A stretch of 64,000 nucleotides of DNA, taken from the IMG/VR virus record IMGVR_UViG_3300046167_000825, positions 62,001 through 126,000 of that record; one strand, given 5' to 3'. The notes under the pieces are model-generated. The model was not told the DNA's origin and searched no databases. It saw only the letters and a program-made list of their open reading frames with translations. Source of the stretch: a virus. Shown here piece after piece: positions 2,536-62,998 of the stretch. The translations under genes were made by a program, and so were the position numbers. Position 1 is the first letter of the stretch. Every line of letters begins with the position of its first letter.

Positions 2536-3447
2536 ATGTCTTTTTCTAATCAAGATCGGATAAATCTCGTCACGAAATCCCTTGTCGCTGGTGTTTTGGA
2601 TGGGAACTCCCTCAGTCAGTGGTATGAAACCCTTTTCCCCTTCACCTTCATGGTGGAGTCTGGGAAGGTTTTGACCCAACTTGATACCATCAGACAACAC
2701 CCCGCTTCGACTATCCTAGAAGCCCAAAACAATGTAGCCCTCCACTTACAAGGCATAGTCGCAGATTATTCTTCTTTGAATACTGCCATTCGATTGACAG
2801 AGGTGACCGACAGCAACAAGACCACATGGGCTGCTTATTCGGTACATGGTGACACTACTTCTCCTATGCTAGACAACTGGATTCAACCACAGTTAGTTCC
2901 CCAAGCAACTGGAAACCCTTCCAACGGTTATGGGATTCTCTTGTGGGATGGTGACCCATCGGCTGGTGGCGAACTGTTGTCCACGACAATCTATATGACG
3001 GGTGTTGGTGCTTCTCGTAGTGTGGCGTGGTTTTGGAACTACTCCAATGGGTTACTGTTGATATCTGAAATGTTCATAGCAGCACGACCAGCCTTTGACC
3101 CTTACATCACGGGTTTTCGTTATATCGGAACATCCATAGGATCAGTTTCGACTGACATCGACATCCTCACCACAGAGATTGAGCAACTGAAAGCCAGTTT
3201 TGATTTGTTTAAGGTCGAGATAGAAACACAAGTGTTGGCTCTCAAGAACATAGTGGAAGGTATCACGGTCACTTCTCTTGGTTCGGGTGTTGAATTAGGT
3301 CAGATGGGTGGCGTAGGAGAAATCGAACTAAAGACCTTGAAGGGAGGTGACCATGTTTCTATCACAGAAGCCAACGGGGAAGTCACCATCACTGTAGAGG
3401 GTGGTTCAAGGACTGGCATGATAACTCGATTTGTGAGAGGAGGTTGA
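2536..3447 (+). CDS. virion structural protein, unknown role
   Basis: A 303-residue protein with ribosome site GAGGTAG. The central part has aromatic, glycine-rich segments (GYGILLWDGDPSAGGELL and SRSVAWFWNYSNGLLL). A predicted coiled coil follows at about 205-245 (DIDILTTEIEQLKASFDLF), then a beta-rich tail ending in SRTGMITRFVRGG. The combination of coiled coil and beta tail is common in phage fibre or baseplate wedge proteins. It ends 1 base before the next gene's ATG, so the two are probably translationally coupled. No family is recognised; the structural role comes from context. Confidence 0.6.
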   Translation: MSFSNQDRINLVTKSLVAGVLDGNSLSQWYETLFPFTFMVESGKVLTQLDTIRQHPASTILEAQNNVALHLQGIVADYSSLNTAIRLTEVTDSNKTTWAAYSVHGDTTSPMLDNWIQPQLVPQATGNPSNGYGILLWDGDPSAGGELLSTTIYMTGVGASRSVAWFWNYSNGLLLISEMFIAARPAFDPYITGFRYIGTSIGSVSTDIDILTTEIEQLKASFDLFKVEIETQVLALKNIVEGITVTSLGSGVELGQMGGVGEIELKTLKGGDHVSITEANGEVTITVEGGSRTGMITRFVRGG

Positions 3448-3448
3448 T

Positions 3449-5320
3449 ATGGCTATTGTCACTATCGGTAGACCAGCGTATTTCTTTGTTCTCTTTGTAG
3501 ATGAAGACCAAAACCCCGTTTCTGTTGTGGGGACAACCATCCATCTTTTTACTTTTGATGAAGATGCCGAACTCGTTCTTGAAGATGGAGTTATGACACC
3601 CACCAATGAGGTTGGGAAGTTTATGTATTCCTTCATGATCCCAGAAGACTGGAGTTACGATTCCAATCTCTATGCCCACATGAGAGGGACAGACGATAAG
3701 GGTCTTAAATATCTCACAGAGCAACAGTTCGACTTATGGAATGAAGACGGGACACCTTATCGTAAGCCACCCCCACCACCTCCTATGTCGCATTGGAACA
3801 CAGACGATGGTGGTAACGGTGCTGATGGATTTGCTTCCAATACCGATTTGGCTTTCCAAACAGCACGAGTTCCGACAGCAGACGGTGCTGATGGCAACCT
3901 AGTCCTCTCAGAGGCATGGGGGAATACCACTCAAGACAGAGTGACAAAGACTGGTGTGATCGAAATAGACACAGTCGGACACACGACTGGCTTCGGTGGG
4001 GATTCTCAGTTTGTAGTTCGGATTGAGAGTCTTAATCAAGTTTATGAAGAGGTTGTTTTCCCAGCAACGGGGGACATATCTCAGTTCTCTCCTAGTTCGG
4101 TGATACACTTCACCATCACTGATTTCCAAGATGACAATCAAGACCGCAAGAAAGCCTTCGCTAAAGTAGTCCTTGATTTGGATATGTTGGTGAACTCAGT
4201 GGGGAGATGGGGCAGTGTGTTCCGTGTCACGACAACGCACATCACAGACACGGTTTCAGATGGGGGTGGTTCGTATAGCCACACCATCAATACTTTTTAT
4301 TATGATTCCAATCCCGAAACGCCCTCTTTTGATCAAGTGCTTTTTGAGGAAAACCTCCGTGTAGTTCGTCATCTCTCTGGGATTGCGTATTACACCAATG
4401 ACACAGTGTTCCGAGTGACCGTCAAAGACATCAATCACCTCAATAATGCTTCGGCTAAGGCATCCAAGAATCTTACAGTAGAAGCAGTTAATATCGATCT
4501 ACCGAAGTTGGAACACTCCCCTTTTGGAGTTGGTGCGGGTTATTTTTCGAGTTGGGACTCGAAGGTCAATCGGAACTTCGTGGATTACCAAAAAAACGAT
4601 TGGAAAGTCCAAGAGCCGAACTACCGTGTGATTGATCAGAATATTTATGTGCAAGCACACGCTGATGACACATGGAACAATGGGGTCACAAAGATATCCC
4701 CGTCCCTCCCAGTTCTGATTGACACTTACGAACAGACCTCCACCCCTCAATACGATGGTTTCGATGATGAAATCCACCGAACAGAGAGTGATTATGTCAC
4801 TGTTTGGGATAGCCTCAATCATTTGAACTCTGGTCAAGCGTTGGTGCAAGGGGGCTTCTTACAGATACCTCACACAGATTGGTCGCCTTATCTTCCTCTC
4901 GACCCTTTACCGAATCCCGATTACACGGGGATTGGGCAAGGTGCTTCTTATTATAGGACATTTGAAGCGACAGATGACGGAACAATCTCTCACTCAAACC
5001 TAGAGATGAGTATTTTCGGTCAGTTCGTTAATGGTTTGGAACAAGACCTCATCAATGGTGACCTTCAGATTTTCATCCGTAAGAAAGTTTCTGAGTCGGG
5101 TGCATCTGGTGTGAACTCCCCTCCTTTAATGGTTCATGGCACAGCATATAATCACACTCTTTTTGATGATGGTGTCACCAACGGTCAGATTCGTGAGTTT
5201 GTTGTGGGGAACACCCTCTCTGTCACTTTTGGTGGGTATGCTGTTAAAGAGGGGGTGTATATGGAAATCCGTATCACCAACCCTCTAGTAAAAATAGACT
5301 CAATGTCCGTGAGTTTTTAG
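3449..5320 (+). CDS. large virion structural protein (tail/fibre region)
   Basis: A 623-residue protein with a strong GAGGAGG site that overlaps the end of the preceding gene. The first ~110 residues form a beta-rich domain (MAIVTIGRPAYFFVLFVDED and so on), followed by a proline run (PPPPPPM) near residue 112 that looks like a hinge. The rest is acidic and beta-prone, with many Asp, Ser and Tyr residues and no cysteine pairs. No catalytic motif was found. It lies immediately before the endolysin gene and after another structural protein. A tail or baseplate component is the simplest reading, but the family is not recognised. Confidence 0.6.
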   Translation: MAIVTIGRPAYFFVLFVDEDQNPVSVVGTTIHLFTFDEDAELVLEDGVMTPTNEVGKFMYSFMIPEDWSYDSNLYAHMRGTDDKGLKYLTEQQFDLWNEDGTPYRKPPPPPPMSHWNTDDGGNGADGFASNTDLAFQTARVPTADGADGNLVLSEAWGNTTQDRVTKTGVIEIDTVGHTTGFGGDSQFVVRIESLNQVYEEVVFPATGDISQFSPSSVIHFTITDFQDDNQDRKKAFAKVVLDLDMLVNSVGRWGSVFRVTTTHITDTVSDGGGSYSHTINTFYYDSNPETPSFDQVLFEENLRVVRHLSGIAYYTNDTVFRVTVKDINHLNNASAKASKNLTVEAVNIDLPKLEHSPFGVGAGYFSSWDSKVNRNFVDYQKNDWKVQEPNYRVIDQNIYVQAHADDTWNNGVTKISPSLPVLIDTYEQTSTPQYDGFDDEIHRTESDYVTVWDSLNHLNSGQALVQGGFLQIPHTDWSPYLPLDPLPNPDYTGIGQGASYYRTFEATDDGTISHSNLEMSIFGQFVNGLEQDLINGDLQIFIRKKVSESGASGVNSPPLMVHGTAYNHTLFDDGVTNGQIREFVVGNTLSVTFGGYAVKEGVYMEIRITNPLVKIDSMSVSF

Positions 5321-5330
5321 AGGAGGCTGC

Positions 5331-6341
5331 ATGTCTTTAGACGAGAAGATTAAAACGATTTTGAAAGAGTTGGGTGTGGATGTTTTTTTCCACACAGATC
5401 CTAAAACAAATACCACCGTTGGCAGTTTCGTATTGCCAAAGGAAAAAGCGAAAAAACAAACAAAGGATAACTTAATGTATGACTTAAAACTGAATGACAA
5501 ATATCTCATCCCTATCGAGAAGGGTCAAGCCGTAGGAAAGGGTTGGAAATCACGTTCTGGTTATAAACCAATGGGTGTCACATGGCATTGGACTGCTGGA
5601 TGGGATTTAGAACGAGGTTGTTCTAAGATTCTTGGTGGTGCTAACGCTTCTCGGAAAGGAAAGGCATCTGCTCACTTTGGTGTGGGTCGTTCTTTTGATG
5701 AAGGGATTGATAGATATGTCACCATCGAAAACCGTTCGTGGCACGCTGGTGCGAATCAGACACTTCGTTGGGATGGCAAGCCTTGTGTTATCAATGGTGT
5801 TCGATACAGTGGTGCTTCCTACTGTATTGGAATCGAAACTGTGAATGTAGGCTATGCTCGTAAAGGTGTGAAAGCCAAAGAGGATTGGAGTGAGTGTGCT
5901 TCAGCCAATGGGACAGAGTACAAGATACAGCCTTGGACAGAAGAACAGATTGAAATGATGATTGCTCTAGGGAAACATATCCAAGAGAAATGGAGTCATC
6001 TCACTTGGGAAGACCACCATGATCATCAAGATTTATGTGCTGGTTATAAGACAGACAGTATTGGTTTTCCTTTCGCTCGTGTTCTCAGAGGTGTTTATAA
6101 CGACCCTTCCATCCCAGATGTGTGGTCACCCTTCCTCACAAATGAACAACGCCAACAAGCCCTCATCGATCTAGGTTATGACTTGGGTAAATGGGGTGCA
6201 GATGGCGATTGGGGTCGTATGTCCGACTCGGCTCTACGGGATTTCCAAGAGTTACACGGAATGGTTGAAAACGGTATGTGGACGACTTTCGTGTCCAAAA
6301 AAGTTTATACTGCACTAGAGGAAAAGGGGTTGAAGAAGTAG
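5331..6341 (+). CDS. endolysin: N-acetylmuramoyl-L-alanine amidase with C-terminal wall-binding domain
   Basis: A 336-residue lysis enzyme expected to cut the bond between N-acetylmuramic acid and L-alanine in peptidoglycan. The amidase_2 domain covers about residues 70-250. MGVTWHWTAGW contains the first zinc histidine (H86), SWHAGANQT the second (H138), and HHDHQDLCAGYKTD carries the conserved end of the site. Residues about 262-330 match a peptidoglycan-binding_1 repeat (ALIDLGYDLGKWGADGDWG, then ALRDFQELHG). No signal peptide is present, so export would need a holin or similar protein; the small membrane protein at 7629 is a candidate. Strong AGGAGG site. The residues before 60 are Lys-rich and have no known domain. 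Confidence 0.9.
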   Translation: MSLDEKIKTILKELGVDVFFHTDPKTNTTVGSFVLPKEKAKKQTKDNLMYDLKLNDKYLIPIEKGQAVGKGWKSRSGYKPMGVTWHWTAGWDLERGCSKILGGANASRKGKASAHFGVGRSFDEGIDRYVTIENRSWHAGANQTLRWDGKPCVINGVRYSGASYCIGIETVNVGYARKGVKAKEDWSECASANGTEYKIQPWTEEQIEMMIALGKHIQEKWSHLTWEDHHDHQDLCAGYKTDSIGFPFARVLRGVYNDPSIPDVWSPFLTNEQRQQALIDLGYDLGKWGADGDWGRMSDSALRDFQELHGMVENGMWTTFVSKKVYTALEEKGLKK

Positions 6342-8975: not shown

Positions 8976-9851
8976 ATGTCAAATGTTTTGCACACCCCAG
9001 AGTCACACTCTGAACACCCCGACTTTGAGGAGTATCTCTCCATTCTTTTGTTGGAAGAGGAGATATCAGTAAATAATGTTTCTGAGAGAATCCAAGAACT
9101 TATAAAGCCAGCAACCCTATCCAAATCAATGGAACAAACAATCACAACACAAGTTAACAGAAGGCTAATTGAACTAGCCATACCAACCCCCCCACCAAAG
9201 GAACAAAGCACTATGCCTACAACCCAATTTTTGAACCAAATGGATAAAGGATGTTTATATGCCACCGAACTCTTGGATAACAATGAGAACGCTGTCTATG
9301 ATATTTTAACCTTCGTGAAAAGGGTTTCCAACCGAAAACGAGGAGGCAAAATCCGAGTCCCCTCAAAGGTTCGTGAAACTCTATTGCCGATTTCAAACTC
9401 CCCCACCACCTTCAGTTCTTTCCTTGTATCTCTTTTAACTCATTGCTTATGTCAGATAACGGCAGAAGACCTCAATGCGACTTACCAGTTTGTGACGGGT
9501 CGAAAACACAACTATTCTAAGCCTCGTCAAGTCCTAGAACATGCAGAGAAAACACACTGGAAGGACACAGAGATTATCTTTCGTGGCGATTTGGATGAGA
9601 TGGCAGCAGAGGTCGGGGTATTCTTTGATGAACCTACGGATCTCACTGAACCTACGGATCTCCACCAAACCGTCCGAGACTTGTTGGGTATGGTGGAGAA
9701 ACAATCCAAACAAATACAATACTTGTCAAGCATTGTATTGGCTAACCAACAAGCCCCCAATGAGGACAACAAGGTTTCTTTCTCTATGGATAAAGAGGAA
9801 CTCCTTCAATATCTCATTCAAAACAACAAACTCAATTTAACCATCAACTAG
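8976..9851 (+). CDS. hypothetical protein, 291 aa
   Basis: First gene after the promoter/hairpin at 8913-8975, with GGAGG as ribosome site inside the hairpin. Mostly helical and acidic, no transmembrane segment. An 18-base direct repeat encodes EPTDLTEPTDL at about residues 219-229, just before a predicted coiled coil (RDLLGMVEKQSKQIQYLSSI). No family is recognised. It shares an operon with the next gene, 9 bases away, and ends before the terminator at 10623. Confidence 0.65.
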   Translation: MSNVLHTPESHSEHPDFEEYLSILLLEEEISVNNVSERIQELIKPATLSKSMEQTITTQVNRRLIELAIPTPPPKEQSTMPTTQFLNQMDKGCLYATELLDNNENAVYDILTFVKRVSNRKRGGKIRVPSKVRETLLPISNSPTTFSSFLVSLLTHCLCQITAEDLNATYQFVTGRKHNYSKPRQVLEHAEKTHWKDTEIIFRGDLDEMAAEVGVFFDEPTDLTEPTDLHQTVRDLLGMVEKQSKQIQYLSSIVLANQQAPNEDNKVSFSMDKEELLQYLIQNNKLNLTIN

Positions 9852-9860
9852 GAGTACAAC

Positions 9861-10598
9861 ATGTCTAAGTACATTCCATCCATCAGCCCCTTAACCGAAA
9901 GCAAACTTCCCCACACAAAATGGGTTGCTGAGGTGCTTCCTTTCCTTACTGAGTCCGAAGAAGAAATCTGTTTTTCAAAGAAGCAAGAGCAAGTTCTCCT
10001 CTCAGCAGTCACGGGTGATAAAGATAATCTCCCTCAAGCCCAAAGTTTATTCAAAGGGTTGGGATTAAGTAAAAAATATAGAGGATACCTCTTTTCTTAT
10101 CTCACACTCAAAGCCTCAAAGACACTCGGACACCTTGTATCGATCCGTGACATCATGTTGGCATACAAGGCTATCTGTGGTAATGCTTGTCACCCCGACT
10201 ACCCCTTACTGGTGGCGAACTATGGTGGCTTCTATGTCATGCCAACGAATGCTTCCACAGTGTATGAAGCCAACAGCACAAGCCTTGCAGAAGACCATGT
10301 GCAGAATGTGACGGAGTTGCTTATGTCTGTCACGAAGTCAAAAAGAAAATCTTATGACACCAGCAATCTCCAAACACTTGAAGAGTTGGAAGTGACAAAC
10401 AAGACATTGGAAAAGAAGGACATGGAGTTTGTGTTCCAGTTCGCTCATAACAATGATCTTCTGAGAGAATTAATGACCGAACTTCAAGATTCCACTCCCG
10501 ATGTAGACCTTCAACGGTCGGTGGATTTATTCGCTCAGAACTCTATGATGTACGATTTCTTTTCTTTCATGCGAGAGAAGGGTATCTCTATTGCATAA
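9861..10598 (+). CDS. hypothetical protein, 245 aa
   Basis: Ribosome site TAGGAG lies 7 bases before the ATG. Helical protein with a Tyr/Gly-rich middle (LLVANYGGFYVMPTNAS) and an acidic C-terminal half. No catalytic or binding motif is recognised. Together with the gene at 8976 it forms a two-gene unit bounded by a promoter upstream and a terminator 25 bases downstream. Confidence 0.65.
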   Translation: MSKYIPSISPLTESKLPHTKWVAEVLPFLTESEEEICFSKKQEQVLLSAVTGDKDNLPQAQSLFKGLGLSKKYRGYLFSYLTLKASKTLGHLVSIRDIMLAYKAICGNACHPDYPLLVANYGGFYVMPTNASTVYEANSTSLAEDHVQNVTELLMSVTKSKRKSYDTSNLQTLEELEVTNKTLEKKDMEFVFQFAHNNDLLRELMTELQDSTPDVDLQRSVDLFAQNSMMYDFFSFMREKGISIA

Positions 10599-10622
10599 AC
10601 ATTGACTAGACGATTTTCCAAC

Positions 10623-10656
10623 AGCCTCCCGTCAATTCTGTGGGAGGCTTTTTTTT
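10623..10656 (+). terminator. intrinsic terminator
   Basis: AGCCTCCC (10623-10630) pairs with GGGAGGCT (10642-10649) across an 11-base loop and is followed by a run of eight T residues (10649-10656). It closes the 8976-10598 unit, just before the exonuclease gene. Confidence 0.85.
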
Positions 10657-10667
10657 AGAGGTATGAA

Positions 10668-11249
10668 ATGAAGATATTGTGGTTTGACCTAGAAACAACT
10701 GGCTTAGACAAAGACACCAACACCATCCTTGAGATAGGGATTGTCGTTACGGACATGGAGGGGAATGTTTTGAGTGCTTGGGACACCAAGATTAAACCCA
10801 CACCCAACGACATAGCACGGGCATCAAAACGAGCCTTGGAGATTAACGGCTACACCACAAAAGGGTGGGAGGATGCTCCAACTCCAGAGGAAATTGCCCC
10901 CATCATTCGTGAGAAGTTCAATGGGAAATATATTCTCGGTGGTCATAATGTCGCTCACTTTGACGTACCCTTTCTGAAAGCGTGGTTGAAGAAACACAAC
11001 CAAGACCCCAACATTGGATATAGATTTTTAGACACCATGAGTACGGCAGTCGAACATCTTTTCCCTTGTGGGCTGAAATCAGCCTCCCTTGTCAATATCC
11101 GAAAGGCATTGAATATTGAAACGGGGAAAGCACACACTGCTCTTGCTGACACACTCGCTTGTGCTGAGGCATACCGTCAAATGGCTCGTTCCTCTCTTAT
11201 CAAACGACTATGGTGGTCGTATGTCATCCCCAAGAGGATGAAGCAATAA
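10668..11249 (+). CDS. DnaQ-like 3'-5' exonuclease (DEDDh)
   Basis: A 193-residue protein with the three exonuclease motifs of the DnaQ/RNase T superfamily. Exo I is WFDLETTGLD (D7, E9 as metal ligands), Exo II is LGGHNVAHFDVPFL with its Asp, and Exo III is AHTALADTLACAEAY with the His-x4-Asp signature of the DEDDh subgroup. It probably trims 3' ends during phage DNA replication or degrades host nucleic acid. The DNA polymerase at 31703 has its own exonuclease domain, so this is an additional enzyme. AGAGG site 6 bases before the ATG, just after a terminator. Confidence 0.9.
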   Translation: MKILWFDLETTGLDKDTNTILEIGIVVTDMEGNVLSAWDTKIKPTPNDIARASKRALEINGYTTKGWEDAPTPEEIAPIIREKFNGKYILGGHNVAHFDVPFLKAWLKKHNQDPNIGYRFLDTMSTAVEHLFPCGLKSASLVNIRKALNIETGKAHTALADTLACAEAYRQMARSSLIKRLWWSYVIPKRMKQ

Positions 11250-11289
11250 ACTGTCTATTCTCAACTATCATTGAACTGGATTGTATTCA

Positions 11290-24760: not shown

Positions 24761-25354
24761 ATGACTATACTATCCATAAATCAAGGGGATTGCTTGGAGC
24801 ATTTGACAACGATGCCAGACGGTTCTGTTGACAGTGTATTGTGTGATCCACCCTATGGGTTGAAGTTCTTCTCACACAACGGTGGGTTTGATAACATAGG
24901 GAACGCCACCCAACAGAAAGAATGGCATCGTGAATGGGTGACACACGCATATCGGCTGTTGAAACCCAACGGTGTTATCAAAGCCTTTTCTAGTCCACGA
25001 ACTCTGCACCATCTGTTGGCGATAATGGTGGAGATCGGCTTTGAGGTGTCCGTAGATTCTTGGTTGTATGTGTCTGGGCGACCAAAGACCATTGATGTGG
25101 CAAAGAGTATTACGGCTTACGAACTAACGGGTTCTTCCTATCAAGGGAAGTTCCACGAACTATCCAAAGGACACAAGAGGTCGAAACTAGACATAGACGA
25201 CTATGTGAATCGAGGGAAGTTCTTCACAAAGGGGCATCAAGAAACCCTAGATTTTGAACTAACCGAGAACGGTCAGAAATGGGATGGATGGCAGTACGGA
25301 TTGAAACCAGCATTTGAACCAATAATTATGGGCTATAAAGGAGCAAAACAATGA
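24761..25354 (+). CDS. DNA methyltransferase, catalytic first module only
   Basis: 197 residues matching the N-terminal third of phage DNA methyltransferases of the DPPY type (adenine-N6 or cytosine-N4). Visible parts are the start LSINQGDCLEHLTTMPDGSV, the catalytic motif IV VLCDPPYGLKF (DPPY at 29-32), LLKPNGVIKAF, the conserved loop LYVSGRPKTIDVAKS, and the end YGLKPAFEPIIMGYKG. The SAM-binding FxGxG motif, normally C-terminal in this permuted order, is absent, so the chain cannot be a complete enzyme alone. Its stop overlaps the next gene (ATGA), a paralogue of the same module that carries an intein. Confidence 0.8.
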   Translation: MTILSINQGDCLEHLTTMPDGSVDSVLCDPPYGLKFFSHNGGFDNIGNATQQKEWHREWVTHAYRLLKPNGVIKAFSSPRTLHHLLAIMVEIGFEVSVDSWLYVSGRPKTIDVAKSITAYELTGSSYQGKFHELSKGHKRSKLDIDDYVNRGKFFTKGHQETLDFELTENGQKWDGWQYGLKPAFEPIIMGYKGAKQ

Positions 25355-27261
25355 CAACATTAACACTAATGAATGGCGATTGTGTCGCCAAGATGAAAGA
25401 GATGGCAGACGAATCTGTGGATGCTGTTCTGTGTGACCCCCCGTACGGACTGAAGTTCATGAACAAGGATTTCGATGATTTGGGTGAGGGGAAACAACAG
25501 AGAGAGTGGCATGTCCAATGGGTGAAAGAAGCCTTTCGAGTTCTGAAACCGAATGGGGTTATGAAAGCCTTTGGGGGAACTAGAACCTACCAACATCTTC
25601 TTGCAGCAATGGCAGAAGTGGGATTCTCTGTTGACCTTTCTGTCTGGGCATACGGATGTCTATCGGAAGACACCGAAATACTTACGGGCGAAGGGTGGGT
25701 TGAACAATCAAAACTCAATAATGGTTCTATGGTTGTGTCCTATTGTATAGACAAGGACACTTATCAAGTGCAAGCCGTTGAGGAGGTAGTTCGATATGAA
25801 TACAAGGATACCGCTTACAGAATACAATCAGATCATACAGACCAAATCGTGTCCCGAAACCATCGTTGCATTGTTGAACGAGAGGGAGAAAGAACTTTTC
25901 TTTTCGCAGAACACTTGCAAGCAAACGAAGTCGTACCCTTTGTGGAGAGTGTGTCGATACGAGGGTTGCGAAACGATCTTTCAAACGGATACAACACGGC
26001 ACGGGCTAAGAAAGAAACTCTGTTCGACCATTCGAGCACACTATCCGACAAAGACTTGCAAGGGGTGTCACAAGGAGTTTCAAACCAGAGAGAAAACAAC
26101 AAAGTATTGTTCGAGGGCATGTCGACCACCTACATGGGTGACGAAAGTATGCAAGGGGTGCAACAAAGAGTTTCAAACAAAGAGATCCTCACAGACTTGG
26201 TGCAAGCGAGAATGTATGACACTGCCGAAGATCACAAAAGAGTGTCAAGGTTGTGGGAAAGAGTTTCAAGTACCAGATGGGAAAGTGGGGCGAGCAAGGT
26301 TGTATTGCAAGCAAGAATGTCAGAGGAAACCAAAGGTGGAATTGACTTGTTATGTCTGCCAAAAGGTGATCCTAGTGAGAGCAAGAAGATTAGAGCGAGC
26401 AAAAAATCCAACTTGTTCAAGGCAGTGCAACGGAGTTCTGAGGGGCGAGGAATGGAAAGCACACGCTCACAAGGGGCGGGCGAACTGGTCACAAGAGAGC
26501 GAACAAGCCTTAGTGGAGAGAATGACGGGAAGCACCAACCCAGCGTGGAAGGGTGGGGTGACCTATCGCAATCGCAAGGGGAACTACATAACTCAGAGTA
26601 TCGCTTATGTGAGATGCCCAACCGAGTACACCTCAATGGCGAGGAAAGACGGGTATGTGATGGAACATCGTTTGAAAGTGGCACAAGCAGTTGGCAGACC
26701 ACTGACGAGAACCGAATGTGTTCATCACATCAATCACAACGCAGAGGACAATCGGTTGGAGAACTTGATGTTGTTCAAGAACAATCGGGATCACAAACTG
26801 TACGAAGCACATGGGAAACCCGAACCACTTTGGCAACCGTCACCCCAATAGAGTACGAGGGCATTGTATGGTGTGTGAAAGTACCAACGGGTGCTTTTGT
26901 CGCTAGACGGAATGGCAAGGTCTTTGTTACGGGGAACTCTGGCTTCCCAAAATCCCTGAATATAAGTAAGAAACTGGACTCAAGACATAAAGCCCGAACG
27001 GGTGAGGAAGGGGCTATCATTGGTTTCACGAAAGGAGTTGGTGGCGAGAACATCAATGATATCGTGGCTGGTAAAGAAGTGCGAACCACAGATGAAGAAG
27101 GTGGCAAAGGTGTGGGTGCTTACGGTACGGGTGCGAAGCAAGTAGCCGTTGATGTTCCCGTCAGAGAGTGGGTCACAGACGAAGCGAAGACTTGGGAAGG
27201 CTGGGGCACGTCTTTGAAGCCAGCCTTTGAGCCAGTGTGTGTAGGATACAAAAGAGTATGA
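25351..27261 (+). CDS. DNA methyltransferase first module interrupted by an intein
   Basis: A 636-residue precursor with an AAAGGAG site. Residues 1-102 and 530-636 are the extein halves, together 209 residues, and align with the gene at 24761: DPPY at 29-32, VLKPNGVMKAFGG, then VWAYG joined to SGFPKSLNISKKL, and the end WGTSLKPAFEPVCVGYK. The intein occupies residues 103-529. After splicing, the extein is again only the first module of a permuted methyltransferase, without the FxGxG motif. The intein frame is open throughout although it contains an entire HNH gene in another frame. Splicing is predicted from motifs. Confidence 0.85.
   Translation: MTTLTLMNGDCVAKMKEMADESVDAVLCDPPYGLKFMNKDFDDLGEGKQQREWHVQWVKEAFRVLKPNGVMKAFGGTRTYQHLLAAMAEVGFSVDLSVWAYGCLSEDTEILTGEGWVEQSKLNNGSMVVSYCIDKDTYQVQAVEEVVRYEYKDTAYRIQSDHTDQIVSRNHRCIVEREGERTFLFAEHLQANEVVPFVESVSIRGLRNDLSNGYNTARAKKETLFDHSSTLSDKDLQGVSQGVSNQRENNKVLFEGMSTTYMGDESMQGVQQRVSNKEILTDLVQARMYDTAEDHKRVSRLWERVSSTRWESGASKVVLQARMSEETKGGIDLLCLPKGDPSESKKIRASKKSNLFKAVQRSSEGRGMESTRSQGAGELVTRERTSLSGENDGKHQPSVEGWGDLSQSQGELHNSEYRLCEMPNRVHLNGEERRVCDGTSFESGTSSWQTTDENRMCSSHQSQRRGQSVGELDVVQEQSGSQTVRSTWETRTTLATVTPIEYEGIVWCVKVPTGAFVARRNGKVFVTGNSGFPKSLNISKKLDSRHKARTGEEGAIIGFTKGVGGENINDIVAGKEVRTTDEEGGKGVGAYGTGAKQVAVDVPVREWVTDEAKTWEGWGTSLKPAFEPVCVGYKRV
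25781..25798 (+). promoter_or_regulatory. Shine-Dalgarno and start of the nested HNH gene
   Basis: AGGAGGT at 25781-25787 followed by 8 bases and ATG at 25796, wholly inside intein coding sequence. It is among the strongest ribosome sites in the window and decides the start of the out-of-frame HNH gene. Confidence 0.8.
25796..26851 (+). CDS. HNH homing endonuclease nested out of frame in the intein
   Basis: 351 residues in the +1 frame relative to the methyltransferase/intein. Four Cys-x2-Cys ... Cys-x3-Cys zinc-finger-like repeats are visible: C88/C91/C105/C109, C119/C122/C136/C140, C150/C153/C171/C175 and C185/C188/C207/C211. A weaker fifth lies at 53-76. NPAWKGG precedes the HNH core: MEHRLKVAQAVGRPL (E290, H291), CVHHINHNAEDNRLENLMLF (H310, H311, N319, N323). 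This core is homologous to the free-standing gene at 27330. The stop at 26849 falls just before intein block F, so the gene fills the space of an endonuclease domain. It should cut intein-less alleles; the target is inferred. Confidence 0.88.
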   Translation: MNTRIPLTEYNQIIQTKSCPETIVALLNEREKELFFSQNTCKQTKSYPLWRVCRYEGCETIFQTDTTRHGLRKKLCSTIRAHYPTKTCKGCHKEFQTREKTTKYCSRACRPPTWVTKVCKGCNKEFQTKRSSQTWCKRECMTLPKITKECQGCGKEFQVPDGKVGRARLYCKQECQRKPKVELTCYVCQKVILVRARRLERAKNPTCSRQCNGVLRGEEWKAHAHKGRANWSQESEQALVERMTGSTNPAWKGGVTYRNRKGNYITQSIAYVRCPTEYTSMARKDGYVMEHRLKVAQAVGRPLTRTECVHHINHNAEDNRLENLMLFKNNRDHKLYEAHGKPEPLWQPSPQ

Positions 27262-27329: not shown

Positions 27330-27941
27330 ATGGATTGTGTGTGTAAGGGCTGTGGGAAAGACTTTCGTGTTTCTCCCAGTGTTATCCGAAAGGGTGGTGG
27401 TAAGTATTGTTCAAGGGCTTGCACGAAAAAAGGTGAGAACCGAGAGTGTCCTACATGTGGTTCGCAGTTTTATGTCAAGAACGCAGAAATCAAGAGGGGC
27501 TATGGCACATACTGTTCGAGAGAGTGTGCCAACCCAGCACGAGGATTGAGTGGTGAAAACCATCCTCAATGGAAGGGTGGTAAGTACAAGCATGGTGACG
27601 GTTATATAATGGTGCGTGTAGGCACGGATAAATACGAACTAGAGCATCGTGTAGTGATGGCGAACCATTTGGGTCGGGAACTGAAAACCCACGAGCATGT
27701 TCATCACATCAATGGTGTGAAGGATGACAACCGTATAGAGAATCTTGAACTGACTACGGCAAGCCAGCACACGAAAGAGCATCACGCTCCCAAGAAGGAT
27801 TTATCGACTTGGATGGCAGTCGCTTGTTTGAGTTGTGGGAATGTCTTCGCTGAACGGAAGAAAAAGGTAGAGAGAAACCCGAACTGTTTTTGCAACAGAG
27901 ATTGTTATATCGCTGGCAAGAAAAAGAGAGTTGTGCAATGA
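27330..27941 (+). CDS. free-standing zinc-finger HNH endonuclease
   Basis: 203 residues from the ATG at 27330 (site AAAGGAG); upstream in-frame ATGs overlap the methyltransferase end and lack sites. Two Cys4 repeats (C5/C8/C27/C31 and C40/C43/C62/C66) are followed by NHPQWKGG, the HNH core YELEHRVVMANHLGREL (E105, H106) with HVHHINGVKDDNRIENLEL, and a third Cys4 unit at about 166-192. The core matches the nested HNH gene 0.5 kb upstream. A homing endonuclease placed right behind the intein-bearing gene could promote mobility of this cluster; that is inference. Confidence 0.87.
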   Translation: MDCVCKGCGKDFRVSPSVIRKGGGKYCSRACTKKGENRECPTCGSQFYVKNAEIKRGYGTYCSRECANPARGLSGENHPQWKGGKYKHGDGYIMVRVGTDKYELEHRVVMANHLGRELKTHEHVHHINGVKDDNRIENLELTTASQHTKEHHAPKKDLSTWMAVACLSCGNVFAERKKKVERNPNCFCNRDCYIAGKKKRVVQ

Positions 27942-28225
27942 ACAAGTGTAATAAATGTGGGAAAGAATTGAGTATGTATTATGTGACGGTGGGCGTGATG
28001 GGGAACTTCTGTGGAACAGAGTGCCTAGAAGCCTACCGAACTTATTTACAGAAACAAACTGAACAGAATGCCTACAAGAATCTTTGCAAACTGATTTATG
28101 CAATGAATAGAGTGATGCTCTCCCAAGACCCTTCCGAAAAGGATGTCATCTTCATAAAGAGGGTAGAAGCAGAGGTTTTGAATATGAAAGACTGGATCAC
28201 ACAACTAGCAAAAGTAGAGCAATGA
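27938..28225 (+). CDS. small zinc-binding protein, 95 aa
   Basis: Begins in an ATGA overlap with the HNH gene. MNKCNKCGKELSMYYV followed by FCGTECLEAY forms a Cys-x2-Cys ... Cys-x3-Cys unit like one finger of the neighbouring endonucleases, but there is no HNH core. The rest is helical. It may be a detached finger or a small regulatory zinc protein. Its stop overlaps a further small frame at 28222. Confidence 0.65.
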   Translation: MNKCNKCGKELSMYYVTVGVMGNFCGTECLEAYRTYLQKQTEQNAYKNLCKLIYAMNRVMLSQDPSEKDVIFIKRVEAEVLNMKDWITQLAKVEQ

Positions 28226-28341
28226 CAGATTTTTGGAAAAAACTAGATGAGGCTTTCGCCTATATCTTTCAAACAAAGAAGAAAAATGACAATACTAAAA
28301 TTAATGAAAGGCGATTGCCTCGAAAAAATGAAGAACCTTGA
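28222..28341 (+). CDS. possible 39-aa leader peptide
   Basis: An ATG overlapping the preceding stop (ATGA) opens a 39-codon frame (MTDFWKKLDEAFAYIFQTKK and on) that ends 56 bases inside the methyltransferase gene starting at 28286. Translation through it would bring ribosomes to the weak methyltransferase start. The coding signal is slight and the product has no known domain. Confidence 0.3.
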   Translation: MTDFWKKLDEAFAYIFQTKKKNDNTKINERRLPRKNEEP

Positions 28342-29980
28342 AAGTTCTTCTGTCCCCTCTATCTTATGCGACCCACCTTACGGCTTGGAGTTCATCACTG
28401 AACTAGAAGGGAAATCACGGAACTTGATGAACCCCACTAGCGAAGCAGATATCAAACGGAAAGAAGACTATGGGAACTCGTACGCTGGGCGTGCCTCCAA
28501 CCTTCCCGATTTGGGTAAGTTCGGACAGTATGGGAAAGGGGTACAAGAGTGGCACAAGGGTTGGGTTGGGGCTTGTCATAGGGTATTGTCAGAAGACGGC
28601 TCGTTGATGGCTTTCAATTCCAGCAAGACCTCTCACCGAATGATAGCCGCTATGGTCGAACTAGGGTTTCACATTTCTATTGATGCTTGGGTATATCTGT
28701 CTGGGATGCCCAAAGCACGAGACTTAGGGGCTGGTGTAGGTTGGTATACAAACTTGAAGCCCTCTTATGAACCTATCATTGTGTGCCGAAAACAAAAAGG
28801 AGAAACTATGCACAAATCACATTTAATTTATATCGGACGGAAGCCTTTGAGCGAGAGGAACATCGCAGAGAATGTTTTGAAGCACGGGACGGGTGCGATG
28901 AACATTGATGCTTGTCGAATAGGTGACGAGGAGCGAACTTACACGGGAAGTGGTGAATCTCAAATGAGATACAATGACGACCGTGCTGGTTTGGCAGATG
29001 GGAGAGGAAAAGAACTTGAGTTCACGGTAAAAGGTCGATGGCCCGCAAACTCTATCTTCTCTAGTTCATGTGCCAAGATTCTTACAAAGCAGATTGGGGC
29101 AGAGGCTTCCACTTATTTTTTCATTTCTGAGGATCGTTTTGATAACCACAATTCGTATAACAACAACAAGGAGAACACTATGAATGTACCATCAGATTTA
29201 TTAGACTATTTACACACGATGATTACCCCCACACATGTGGGAGGGGAAAGTCTCATCATCCAAGAGGGCTTGAACGATCACGACTTCAGCCAATACACCG
29301 ACAATCAATGGCACGGTTGTATCGCTGTTGGAACACCGACAGAGGAAACAAGCAAGGAACTTATGAGAGTCATGAAGGCTGGTGCTCATTTGATGTTGAT
29401 AGCCCCCGAAGAAGAACCCACTGGTTATAAGGGTGCTTGTCAGATTGAGGACACGGGATTTGAAATCAGAGATTCTATATTTTGGGCGAGAGAAACCGAC
29501 CCAGAGAATCCCAACTTCATGTACATGCCAAAGGCTTCACGGAGTGAGAGAGAACTAGGCACAGAGCATTTGAAAAAAGTCAGTGGTGCTGAAGCCGTTG
29601 ATCGGAAAGAAGGTTCTGCTGGGATGGACAACCCCCGTGCTGGTGCTGGTAGAACAGCCACAGAGATTGGTAATTTTCATCCGACTGTCAAGCCCATTGG
29701 GATTATGGAATGGTTGGCTCGTGATGTACCAAAAGGTGCGACAGTTCTAGACCCATTTATGGGTTCTGGCACTATGGGTATCGCTTGTGTGAAGACGGGA
29801 CACTCTTATATAGGCACAGAGATTGACGAGAGTTACTTCCCTATTGCAGATGCTCGTATCCGTCATTGGAATGAAACCTATTGTGCTTGGGATAGTGCTG
29901 AGGTCATTTCTGACCTAGATGAGGAAGAGACAGAGGATGTCCTAGCCCCTATCGACTTGAACAGTTTCTTGGGTTTTTAG
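28286..29980 (+). CDS. complete DNA methyltransferase built of three modules
   Basis: 564 residues. Module 1 (1-174) has the catalytic CDPPYGLEF (29-32), VYLSGMPKARD and LKPSYEPIIVCRK. Module 2 (from Met 175) has IYIGRKPLSERNIAENVL, GAMNIDACRIG and GRWPANSIF, the target-recognition part. Module 3 (from Met 299) ends with PTVKPIGIMEWLARD and the SAM-binding LDPFMGSGTMGIACVK (489-496) and IGTEIDESYF. This is the permuted order of DPPY-type amino-methyltransferases. Both internal Mets have strong in-frame ribosome sites (28797, 29168), so the gene looks like three fused genes. An extra domain (about 299-400) lies between modules 2 and 3. Start at 28286 has a weak AAGAAG site. Confidence 0.85.
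   Translation: MTILKLMKGDCLEKMKNLESSSVPSILCDPPYGLEFITELEGKSRNLMNPTSEADIKRKEDYGNSYAGRASNLPDLGKFGQYGKGVQEWHKGWVGACHRVLSEDGSLMAFNSSKTSHRMIAAMVELGFHISIDAWVYLSGMPKARDLGAGVGWYTNLKPSYEPIIVCRKQKGETMHKSHLIYIGRKPLSERNIAENVLKHGTGAMNIDACRIGDEERTYTGSGESQMRYNDDRAGLADGRGKELEFTVKGRWPANSIFSSSCAKILTKQIGAEASTYFFISEDRFDNHNSYNNNKENTMNVPSDLLDYLHTMITPTHVGGESLIIQEGLNDHDFSQYTDNQWHGCIAVGTPTEETSKELMRVMKAGAHLMLIAPEEEPTGYKGACQIEDTGFEIRDSIFWARETDPENPNFMYMPKASRSERELGTEHLKKVSGAEAVDRKEGSAGMDNPRAGAGRTATEIGNFHPTVKPIGIMEWLARDVPKGATVLDPFMGSGTMGIACVKTGHSYIGTEIDESYFPIADARIRHWNETYCAWDSAEVISDLDEEETEDVLAPIDLNSFLGF
28796..28810 (+). promoter_or_regulatory. internal in-frame Shine-Dalgarno and ATG, start of module 2
   Basis: AAAAGGAG followed by AAACT and ATG at 28808, in frame with the methyltransferase. 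It falls exactly at the junction of modules 1 and 2, where free-standing copies of module 2 also begin. Confidence 0.65.
29168..29182 (+). promoter_or_regulatory. internal in-frame Shine-Dalgarno and ATG, start of module 3
   Basis: AAGGAG, six bases, ATG at 29180, in frame with the methyltransferase. It follows the end of module 2 (TYFFISEDRF) and precedes the SAM-binding half, so that half could be made separately. Confidence 0.65.
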
Positions 29981-36909: not shown

Positions 36910-37112
36910 TGAAAATCACAGAGGGAAATAGACGGATAAGAGATGCAAGAATATCTTATAAAGGGAGAGGGGGTGTGATTCTACGAGCGAGAGTCGGGAG
37001 AAAGCCCACACCCATAATGGCAGAGATACAGTTCCAGTTTGGGGATAGAGAAACGCACGATATCTCTGAGGCTTATTGGGACACAGAGAAAAAACTTTGG
37101 GTGGTGGGATGA
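36909..37112 (+). CDS. hypothetical protein, 67 aa
   Basis: ATG overlaps the previous stop (TAATG). Basic, beta-rich protein (RRIRDARISYKGRGGVILRA, then IMAEIQFQFGD). The arginine content may indicate nucleic acid binding. Ends in an ATGA overlap with the methyltransferase fragment that follows. Confidence 0.55.
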   Translation: MKITEGNRRIRDARISYKGRGGVILRARVGRKPTPIMAEIQFQFGDRETHDISEAYWDTEKKLWVVG

Positions 37113-37537
37113 TTATTACAATAGGAAGAAAGCCTTTTAAGGGTGCAGTCATAGACAATGTCATGAAGAATCACTGTGGGGGGATCAACATAGACCCTTG
37201 TCGGATTACCTTTCAGACAGACGGGGTGCGAAAAGAAACCAAGCGAACCCCAAGAGATGACACAGCCGTATGGACTGACAAGAACAGTGGTATGAAGAAA
37301 GAGAACTCTTTGTATGCCGATGCCGACCCACGAGGTCGCTTCCCCGCCAATGTTCTGTTCTCAGAGAGTGTTACCCACCACTTACCCAAAGCGACACAAG
37401 GTCACTGGGCTAATGCGAAGGTCACGGGCTATGGTGATCGTATCGGTTCGGGGACAGTTGAATATCCTGATGTTGGTGAAAAAGATCAAAGTGGTGGCTC
37501 GGTAGCAAAATACTTCTTCATTTTGCGAGGTGTTTGA
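37109..37537 (+). CDS. free-standing methyltransferase middle module (target-recognition part)
   Basis: 142 residues. MIITIGRKPFKGAVIDNVMK, then CGGINIDPCRI, then RGRFPANVLFSESV and SGGSVAKYFFILRG follow the same order as residues 175-298 of the methyltransferase at 28286 (GRKP, NV, NIDACRI, RWPANSIF, YFFI). No DPPY and no FxGxG motif is present, so it lacks both catalytic and SAM-binding parts. It could supply alternative specificity in trans to other modules. Starts in an ATGA overlap; its stop overlaps the next ATG. Confidence 0.72.
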   Translation: MIITIGRKPFKGAVIDNVMKNHCGGINIDPCRITFQTDGVRKETKRTPRDDTAVWTDKNSGMKKENSLYADADPRGRFPANVLFSESVTHHLPKATQGHWANAKVTGYGDRIGSGTVEYPDVGEKDQSGGSVAKYFFILRGV

Positions 37538-40574: not shown

Positions 40575-40886
40575 ATGATTATCACAATAGGTAGGAAGCC
40601 TTTCAAGGGTGCAGTAGTGGACAATGTGAAAGACAACGCTTGTGGTGGGTTAAACATCAATGAAACCCGTATTGGAACAGAGGGAGGTCGAACCAACAAA
40701 GGGGGCTATCAAGATTCTTTTGTGGGAGGCACAGTGGATTACAAAACCTCTGGGGTTGAAACCGATCTCACACCGAAAGGGAGATGGGCTGCGAATGTGA
40801 TAATCAATACTGCTTCTTCTCGGGCTTTAGATGAACAAAGTGGGGGTACTGTTGCAAGCAGATATTTCAAAAAGGTGGGCAAATGA
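40575..40886 (+). CDS. free-standing methyltransferase middle module, second copy
   Basis: 103 residues. MIITIGRKPFKGAVVDNVKD, then CGGLNINETRIG, then GRWAANVIINTASSRAL and DEQSGGTVASRYFKK. It is paralogous to 37109-37537 and to the middle of the methyltransferase at 28286. DEQSGG and SRYF are hallmark strings of the recognition part of phage amino-methyltransferases. Catalytic and SAM-binding parts are missing. Ends in an ATGA overlap with the PLD-like gene. Confidence 0.72.
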   Translation: MIITIGRKPFKGAVVDNVKDNACGGLNINETRIGTEGGRTNKGGYQDSFVGGTVDYKTSGVETDLTPKGRWAANVIINTASSRALDEQSGGTVASRYFKKVGK

Positions 40887-60800: not shown

Positions 60801-62998
60801 TGGATGACGGAGTGCGGCTCATCTTATTCAAGAATCTTCTATTTGATACAGATGTCTCTGGGAAGAAACACCTCGTCAATCTCACGAAGGAAGTTCTGAA
60901 TGGGAGTTTAAGTTTTGAGGAGGCTGACTGGGAAACAACGGCTCTCTACTCTCAACTGAATGACATATATCATATAGCACATGGAACAATTGCCCCTAGT
61001 CCTATCCCTTGTGATTATCAACCCCCCAAGTTTGAAGCCAAGAAAGATATCACACCGAATGGTCAAGGGTTGTCCATTGAGTTCCGACTCCAACAAGTGA
61101 AGTGGGATGGGGGTCTTAGCGGGACTTCGCTGCTGTTCCAGCAAGGCGATTATTCCGTGCTAGTTCAGTTCGGAAATAATGAGTTCACAGTAGGTTTGCC
61201 AACGGGCGTGGTAAATACATACCCTTTCATGCACATAGGGGAATACCACACCTACCGATTGGTTCTCGATGTCATAACATCAACCTTAAATATCCTTGCA
61301 GACGACACCCTTGTAGATTCATTAGCCCTCCCTCTGTTCGCTGACATCTCTGACCCAAGTGTTGTTATCACCAGTGAGGAAGAGTGCTTGCTAGACTATC
61401 TCACGGTTCTCCAAAGACCCAACGCCACAGCCCAACGAACAATCGGTGTGTGGAAACAAGGAGTTCAGACAGACTTAGACTCGTGGGAAGTGCCAAGAAC
61501 AGATTCCCATTTCCTCCCCAACAGTTCAAGCATTTCCGTGATAGAAGAAATGGACTGGCGAGAGATGATGGATGTACGCCTCCACCGAGATGCTGGGTGG
61601 GGTTTGACCTTGTATCGGACAGACTTAGCCCCACCACCTTATTTTGATGGTGTGTGGGCAACCGAAACGACCGACCCCTCTGCTGGTTGGATTAACATCG
61701 AATATGATGATTTACCCCCGTCAGAAAGTCCAGTGGGAATGATTTCTTTTGGGGCTGACATTGGGTACTCCGTGTGGCGACTGTTCCGTTATCGTATGTA
61801 CCTCACAGCGAAGGAAGATTGGAGTTCGCCCCACCACATGATTCTCAACCAAGCAAATGTGCTGACCTCCGATGAGATACACAAGGACATCACAATTGAG
61901 TTGTGTGAAGTGGAGAGTCTTTCCAACCAAGTGATTAGTTTAATCCCGACTGATTTGTTTGCAGAGAATATCTTTGTGGTGCGAGTGGAAGACATCGTTC
62001 TCCCTAGTTCGATGTGGGAGTTCGATGAACAATCTCAGAGTATCTTCGTGAAACAGCCATTGGGTTTCACGGAGGGTAAGCCCTACATTGGATTGGTTCA
62101 TAGCCATGAGGGAATCTTGATGGTGGGGGAGTATCACATTGAGGATGCGAACCAAGAGATTCTTGAGATACGGGAACATTACACAGCCCACATCTCTTAC
62201 GCCCCCTCTAGGACAACTCGGACAAAGACTTATCTGAAAAACCAAGAGGTTCTTTCTTCCATCACTTTATTGAATGAAGGAACACCTCCCGTACCCAAGT
62301 CGCAGATTGCAGATGCCATCAGAGAAGTCGTCTTTGGTTCGGGTGTTAATATAGTTCAAGATGTCTTGAACAATGACCCCGACTTCTTCTTAAATGACCC
62401 TTCCAAGTCTGTCCAGTTCAGAGATCCCAATGAAAGATATGAAAACTTAGAGTTCATTGAGAAGGAACTCGGTTCAGATGAACCCATCACGATTGCTTGC
62501 GATGACTTCAACGAGATCGATATCAGAGGCTCAAAGTTCTCAGAGAATGTGGAGGTCGTGAAGCAAACCCCTCAACAAATCGGTCATGTCATGCACTTAT
62601 CTGGTGGGGCATATCTAGGGAAGACACTCGGGGGGACAAATGCCGTTCTGTACCCCAATGCTCCCGCCACACAAGTAGGGAAAGGATCAGTCCAACGACA
62701 ATGTCTTATTAAACTTAGTGTGAAATCTATTCTGAGAGGGAACACGGAAGAAGCCCTAGAAGAAACAATCCCAACCCCAAATGACGGGGGGTCTTGTGAT
62801 ATGGTTCTCACAGATTATGCCAACCTACACACGCACATCGCTCCTTGGGGTACTATGATAGCGTTAGGTCAGAACTCATTGTTGTACGGTGCTAGTTCTG
62901 TTCAACCAACTGGCGTGCCAAGTTCTGGCACGGGGGTGACCCTTGAAGGAGGACTCCCTTTACCTCAACCAACCACAACTACAATAACTGTTCCATAA
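57833..62998 (+). CDS. very large virion protein (1721 aa), tail fibre or baseplate
   Basis: Start at 57833, where the ATG overlaps the previous stop; an ATG at 57821 lies inside that gene. The N-terminus is Gly/Tyr-rich (GISTYGYGGYGVAPFGATNP). Several beta-sandwich segments follow, including ISSARAVDGNTLEIFFSADV-type fibronectin-like strands (read as VSSARAVDGNTLEIFF) and lectin/laminin-G-like stretches (GLSIEFRLQQVKWDGGLSGT; YHTYRLVLDVITSTLNILAD). The C-terminal ~250 residues look like a separate domain. It could link fibres to the baseplate or bind a surface glycan. No catalytic motif recognised. Confidence 0.7.
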   Translation: MGLFLPSNGISTYGYGGYGVAPFGATNPPTQQSLISGFGQSLIFGGVSTFPAPPIASVDGFGGHFGLGVYGTRGTSLTRVSSARAVDGNTLEIFFSADVLEDASYYAVASYKILETLGAACDITSVEKGRVGELGLSSVIVKHNGTTMGGYYQVLVENLTDTSHNPILPEEGSKAFFCGLRPTTEVSAESIDGNVIITFNEGIESGGDDTSNYLWEYDYPVNVTVTNISQPQENKVELELQGLTHTDYLLTLGRLPSILFSDNVGSNYVFTGLGEASRVPSGLLISKEQNDAFLVRFPDEHGDIQPNSAYTVELSFDLSTPHIRPYYLTEPVMEIFVSDGLVEIGLVFKEIDGVGVIEMNSGLYSTQVISDWRRTRQDLKLIRNERYGFYALEVNGACLLSIPLGSLTGIDVHGVGVSFNFNPYYRLLHFLIEKVIFTASQTIYTTSGNFIHNSVLNIRGNSTSVQEILLTQHGPLTKGWGDATPATDQDVAVFVNGVAVEVEAVNPYEGAIQPLIPIPLMPSGLIDVRVDYKWHKSPIMQMAGLNTEGLTLNKWDRANHLHDTRPNNSSRGKENIGRFPFGVVLPFGERKQPKLVSHRYIGFERDYSAVLNSPTTMMLNQDPHRVAIPELHEMVNGEVHSLDGNSTPSDNGWGVSEISANINGDGTFTTNGKGQFYKEIDFAFPKSVVFASRFQVKEYELTGVFTNVAFGVKTNHFLHMVGMLEINGVQHIGLCTNFDEPHLQDSWNIGLEQTVDLISQNQFKIATEDYPLVSSLATLRFQVFNGTQVGTYTVIEATPLTTGETIVEFSPPMSAPYTEWENSPVTLNFEHLFSDFNQTYRLVSNTESREVQLFIGGAVSGLAFEDVVETTVVRTRDAFNFTEGVFSGGLLSNGYKNTTIDYSLIQFGTTPKNALLYSRGHVISEHFSQVPSDWFVLGDYGQAIIDVDRMDLRGQGGYTFHRIEPFFQKKVISDTDLFFQVDEGDIEVRVDDGVRLILFKNLLFDTDVSGKKHLVNLTKEVLNGSLSFEEADWETTALYSQLNDIYHIAHGTIAPSPIPCDYQPPKFEAKKDITPNGQGLSIEFRLQQVKWDGGLSGTSLLFQQGDYSVLVQFGNNEFTVGLPTGVVNTYPFMHIGEYHTYRLVLDVITSTLNILADDTLVDSLALPLFADISDPSVVITSEEECLLDYLTVLQRPNATAQRTIGVWKQGVQTDLDSWEVPRTDSHFLPNSSSISVIEEMDWREMMDVRLHRDAGWGLTLYRTDLAPPPYFDGVWATETTDPSAGWINIEYDDLPPSESPVGMISFGADIGYSVWRLFRYRMYLTAKEDWSSPHHMILNQANVLTSDEIHKDITIELCEVESLSNQVISLIPTDLFAENIFVVRVEDIVLPSSMWEFDEQSQSIFVKQPLGFTEGKPYIGLVHSHEGILMVGEYHIEDANQEILEIREHYTAHISYAPSRTTRTKTYLKNQEVLSSITLLNEGTPPVPKSQIADAIREVVFGSGVNIVQDVLNNDPDFFLNDPSKSVQFRDPNERYENLEFIEKELGSDEPITIACDDFNEIDIRGSKFSENVEVVKQTPQQIGHVMHLSGGAYLGKTLGGTNAVLYPNAPATQVGKGSVQRQCLIKLSVKSILRGNTEEALEETIPTPNDGGSCDMVLTDYANLHTHIAPWGTMIALGQNSLLYGASSVQPTGVPSSGTGVTLEGGLPLPQPTTTTITVP

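Follow-up and report, generated by a model that had tools for sequence, protein, structure and literature searches.

A probable re-fused split DNA methyltransferase gene in a very large phage, with candidate ribosome start sites at both joints

Can a single phage gene be the product of three formerly separate genes and still carry the start signals of two of them? This question is raised by a gene encoding a 564-residue DNA methyltransferase (positions 28286-29980, + strand; an upstream in-frame ATG lies at 28247) in a 64,000-nucleotide stretch (positions 62,001 to 126,000, hereafter the window) of the 289,014-base virus record IMGVR_UViG_3300046167_000825. A sequence-only reading had described it as a three-module gene with in-frame ribosome sites at both module borders, had noted that free-standing module 2 genes start at the matching point, and had proposed that three genes were fused by loss of stops while keeping their starts, so that full-length and shorter products may coexist. 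The observation itself is confirmed by our analysis, whereas its interpretation is only partly supported: the fusion of three once-separate genes that kept their starts is strongly supported by relatives, but the route, the origin of module 2, and the existence of shorter products require refinement.

Two candidate internal start sites at the module borders

The gene contains AAGGAG at 28797-28802 followed, after 5 nt, by an ATG at 28808 (M175), and a second AAGGAG at 29168-29173 followed, after 6 nt, by an ATG at 29180 (M299), both in frame. To assess whether these sites exceed chance, we scored the pairing of the 14 bases upstream of each ATG with the 16S tail. The two sites reach -8.7 and -8.5 kcal/mol, against a mean of -1.9 for 230 other in-frame internal ATGs in the curated + strand genes of the window, only one of which is as strong, and they are the only in-frame AAGGAG-N4-9-ATG sites inside those genes. 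The RNA around them (-30 to +30) is unusually unstructured, with -3.6 and -2.1 kcal/mol compared with -10.8 +/- 3.3 for internal ATGs and -5.7 for real starts. With a looser ORF set, 9 and 10 of 354 ATGs have a Shine-Dalgarno (SD) sequence as strong, but none combines it with equally open RNA. If the amino acid sequence is taken as given, however, synonymous resampling yields an SD this strong about 20% of the time at each border and 4% at both, so that codon choice alone is weak evidence and the argument rests on position, openness, and relatives. The gene's own start at 28286 has a weak SD (-1.8).

The protein matches the PF01555 profile (E-value 1.2e-26, above the gathering score) and has the motif order of beta-class N6/N4 amino-methyltransferases, with DPPY (28370-28381) before and DPFMGSG (29750-29770) after the variable region. 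A Foldseek search retrieved the solved beta-class enzymes CcrM and M.BceJIV at probability 1.00, but with an rmsd of 11-12 Å over the whole chain; the predicted model of the full chain is of moderate quality (pLDDT 74.8, pTM 0.76). In ordinary single-chain relatives (PHROG 67; e.g., Mycobacterium phage PattyP gp61, Arthrobacter phage Colucci gp85, and many IMG/VR contigs), the chain runs DPPY, EPIVxARKPL, variable region, GRWPAN, FFxYxAKASRSER, HPTVKP, and FxGSG without a break. The window gene shares this order and the conserved blocks RKPL, GRWPAN, KASRSER, and HPTVKP but, in contrast with this usual form (one uninterrupted chain with one first half), it is interrupted twice, with 17 and about 130 extra residues at the joints.

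Module 1 (28286-28807), the N-terminal catalytic half, ends EPIIVCRKQKGET. At the first joint, where uninterrupted relatives read EPIxxxRKPL straight through, the gene reads EPIIVCRKQKGET-MHKSHLIYIGRKPL, with the strand and RK motif present on both sides (EPIIVCRK...LIYIGRKP), as expected if two complete gene ends were joined; both are modeled as separate strands. Module 2 (28808-29122), inferred to be the target-recognition region, reads MHKSHLIYIGRKP ... GRWPAN ... ASTYFF. Two free-standing module 2 genes elsewhere in the window (37109-37537 and 40575-40886, both +) start with MIITIGRKPF, matching M175-HKSHLIYIGRKPL, in agreement with the sequence-only reading. A poorly conserved linker, ISEDRFDNHNSYNNNKENT (29123-29179), modeled with low confidence, holds the second SD. 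Module 3 (29180-29980), the SAM-binding half, then starts with its own degenerate first half (RVMKAGAHLMLIAPE ... EDTGFEIRDSI), in which GTPT (GTPTEE, 29330-29347) stands where DPPY would be, before it rejoins FMYMPKASRSER, with NFHPTVKP at 29672 and the DPFMGSG motif. The homology of free-standing module 3 begins about 5 residues after M299, and a profile scan places the parts as 1-2-1'-3. A predicted structure of module 3 alone was too poor to use (pLDDT 57.7).

Separate and partly fused modules in related phages

The search for relatives in which stops still separate the modules, the check proposed with the original observation, came out in favor of the fusion. Contig IMGVR_UViG_3300025669_002088 (loci designated here L039, L127, and L207) has, right after a DnaB-like helicase, a stand-alone module 3 (3914-5263; 49-51% identical, with the same GTPT motif) followed by six module 1 and six module 2 genes, many of them overlapping as ATGA or GTGA. 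Contig 3300031774_003338 (L258) has a module 2 and then module 1 (2792-3361), module 2 (3358-3780), and module 3 (3780-4481), that is, the order of the fused gene with stops in place and with ATGA and TAATG overlaps. Contig 3300017962_004729 (L219) is similar. Free-standing module 1 genes end just after the EPxxxxRK-like strand, and nearly all free-standing module 2 genes begin with a short I/V-rich stretch before RKP, the same border as in the window gene.

INTERMEDIATES. Four other contigs have module 2 fused in frame to module 3: L126 (9539-10756), L218 (11037-12479, in a 435.8-kb contig), L261 (10004-11278), and L312 (7380-8873). Counting the window gene, three of five fused genes carry a strong SD-ATG at the module 2/module 3 joint: the window gene (-8.5), L218 (AAGGAG-N5-ATG, -7.7, in another codon phase), and L312 (AGGAG-N7-ATG, -7.4, in an exceptionally open stretch of its locus). 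In none of these three loci does another internal in-frame ATG match the site in both SD strength and openness, so the second internal start of the window gene has counterparts in two other fused genes. By contrast, L126 has an ATG with only a weak SD (-1.8) and L261 has no Met at the joint, so that internal initiation is not universal in fused forms. "Loss of stops" is too simple a description of the joining, since the separate genes overlap as ATGA or TAATG and a small frame-restoring indel is needed: the L126 joint (GAAGATAAACTCATG) differs from the L258 stop-start overlap (GAAGATAACTAATG) by one inserted base and a few changes, which shows how such an indel can fuse overlapping genes and keep the start. 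In L128, a close relative of L126, module 2 is truncated and out of frame whereas module 3 is intact from its own ATG, a natural hint that module 3 is made independently.

Phylogenetic analysis supports this ancestry for two of the three modules. Ten module 1 sequences of the split kind, including the fused one, form one side of a branch with 98/99 support against 52 ordinary ones, and eight module 3 sequences form a 100/100 group apart from ordinary chains, with free and fused forms intermixed. Module 2 of the fused gene falls instead among ordinary chains (98/92 branch), although its branch is long and the test against grouping it with free-standing copies is weak and was made after seeing the tree (p-AU 0.033). 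It may therefore have been swapped in, the fused gene being partly a recombinant. A search with the phage DNA polymerase found no viral contig, but tblastn led to the syntenic huge phage LR745208.1, which has ordinary single-chain enzymes; at the same place, between the DnaB helicase and the primase/polymerase genes, stands one ordinary single-chain gene. A scan of genome contigs gave only five relatives, none of which showed split modules in the module scan.

In the window's record we found three module 1 copies (24761, 25351, and fused), three module 2 copies (37109, 40575, and fused), and one module 3, that of the fused gene, although all genomes compared here are metagenomic and records may be incomplete. 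A match at 168924 of the record is not a free module 3 but lies in a whole, separate, small MboIIA-like methyltransferase (DIPY ... DPCGGS) at 168483-169139 of the record (L010 2984-3640). Among the free-standing module 1 genes, copy A (24761-25354, +) carries AAAGGAG for the next gene in its last codons and overlaps it by ATGA, whereas copy B (25351-27261, +) is interrupted by an intein-like insert.

A probably re-fused split enzyme, with possible use of its internal starts

Our best explanation, held with moderate confidence, is that the gene is a re-fused form of a split beta-class N6/N4 amino-methyltransferase that some large phages encode as separate parts. In this view, the relatives keep separate, translationally overlapping genes, with one module 3 found per locus and often several module 1 and module 2 genes, whereas here small frame-restoring changes at the stop/start overlaps joined one module 1, one module 2, and the only module 3 found in the record, leaving both SD-ATG signals intact. 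As module 1 lacks the SAM motif and module 3 lacks DPPY, free-standing module 1 genes would need a module 3. The message would be read as the full chain (564 aa) and, from 28808 and 29180, as module 2-3 (390 aa), like the genes of L126, L218, L261, and L312, and module 3 alone (266 aa), like the genes of L039, L219, and L258, which would let the free-standing module 1 and module 2 genes of this phage pair with a SAM-binding subunit. Our analysis establishes the anatomy of the gene, the existence of the relatives, the ancestry of modules 1 and 3, and the strength of the two sites; in contrast, the use of the internal starts and thus the existence of shorter products, which is plausible, the assembly of the parts into an active enzyme, target recognition by module 2, and methylation of phage DNA are inferred from sequence alone.

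Several alternatives were weighed against this scenario. The fusion could be real but the enzyme work only as one chain, the SD-ATG signals being unused relics of a recent fusion. The absence of a Met at the L261 joint, the weak site of L126, and the 4% synonymous chance of both SDs given the protein are compatible with such fossil starts, but we consider them less likely because strong, open sites occur at the same joint in three distantly related fused genes, in more than one codon phase, and because the record has free module 1 and 2 genes but no other module 3 was found in it. Much less likely is a fission in progress, in which an unsplit ancestor gained internal starts first and the free-standing modules split off later by gaining stops. 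Uninterrupted single-chain relatives are indeed common, one of them at the syntenic place in LR745208.1, and the inner order of the split clade in the module 1 tree is weak (87/21); however, module 3 carries a second, DPPY-less first half that ordinary chains lack, the first joint carries both gene ends, and fused and free forms are mixed in the module 3 tree.

An assembly or sequencing indel is also very unlikely. In a metagenomic record, a 1-2 nt error would suffice to fuse genes that, in relatives, overlap by 1-4 nt, but two independent errors would be needed, the module 2-3 join recurs in four other contigs, and the 19-codon linker at the second joint is open. A simple insertion into a canonical chain was rejected because module 3 brings a second first half and modules 1 and 3 belong to the split clades.

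Precedents exist for each step of the proposed scenario. The naturally split methyltransferases M.AquI and M.EcoHK31I are likewise single enzymes assembled from two polypeptides (PMC3404938, which also covers artificial split enzymes), but they belong to the cytosine C5 class, have two parts, and show no multiplied interchangeable parts. In the unrelated Type I enzyme EcoKI, an engineered fusion of the overlapping HsdM and HsdS genes, made by removing a frameshift, is functional and still needs free M subunit in vitro (PMC3510504), with no internal start described. Internal in-frame starts supply a C-terminal subunit from a larger gene in the unrelated Cas11b, inside cas8b (PMC11899642), and RpnS, inside RpnL (PMC10327210); here, there are two candidate internal starts in one gene, together with comparative evidence that the parts were once genes. 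Catalogued phages seem to hold already two-part versions of this enzyme, as suggested by the profile lengths and matches of PHROG 6025 (192 aa, module 1-like) and PHROG 3008 (244 aa, module 2 plus the C-terminal part of module 3). By contrast, a three-part system with a DPPY-less shared module 3 and multiplied module 1 and 2 genes was not found in INPHARED, where no record covered 80% of the module 3 query, and literature searches found no description of it, which shows only absence from the library searched.

A more speculative possibility, which remains tentative, is that some large phages run a combinatorial methyltransferase in which one SAM-binding subunit (module 3, itself a pseudo-methyltransferase without DPPY) is shared by several interchangeable catalytic halves and target-recognition parts, giving many methylation specificities from a small parts list, with fused genes such as this one keeping internal starts so that the shared subunit is still made on its own. 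Such an enzyme would give a phage a cheap way to change the methylation pattern that protects it from restriction. The set of contigs, with all modules separate, module 2-3 fused, or all three fused with starts kept, is also an unusually complete series for how overlapping genes become one gene, and makes it directly testable whether the old start sites stay in use to keep subunits in supply.

Inserts and further fusions in the methyltransferase loci

The intein-like insert of module 1 copy B (25657-26937; CLSEDTEILTGEGW ... VFVTGN|SG) contains an HNH endonuclease encoded in another reading frame of the same DNA (25796-26851). LR756508.1 has the same layout (L013 4959-7310, HNH at 5332-6216). 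This element is related to the "hidden HNH" ShiLan element in phage methylases (PMC11855218), but here splicing motifs seem present (Pfam Intein_splicing, E-value 0.0017, below cut-off). Between copy B and the fused gene lie an HNH endonuclease gene with an SD-like AAAGGAG (27330-27941) and a small zinc-finger gene (27938-28225; zf-FCS, just below cut-off), a possible cause of the splitting, as with homing endonucleases in T4. In L128, module 3 (9842-11254) is interrupted by an intein-like insert between NFHP and TVKP.

In three module 1 genes of split systems (L261 11350-11400, L218 14566-14620, and L128 14193-14240), a short insert (8, 14, and 15 nt, respectively) splits the glycine codon after DPPY: GGN is followed by a stop (TAA, TAG, and TGA) and then by a GGN from which the normal frame resumes. 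Although a further split or inactivation is not excluded, this looks like the take-off/landing layout of T4 gene 60 bypassing (PMC5009743). It affects 3 of 151 DPPYG sites, all three in split systems. Another joining of module 2 to a downstream gene is found in L126 (17051-18646) and L128 (15502-18141), where a free-standing module 2 is fused in frame to a cytosine-C5 methyltransferase (GGASRYFKQIKPSGLIVLSLFDGLSCG); L128 has an internal Met at the joint and an intein further on. Finally, the 484-kb phage LR756508.1 carries a tandem array of four methyltransferase genes (L028 154-4764), one lacking the middle region (EPIALARKKGD...GSRFFYCPKA) and one lacking DPPY (TCITESNETS).
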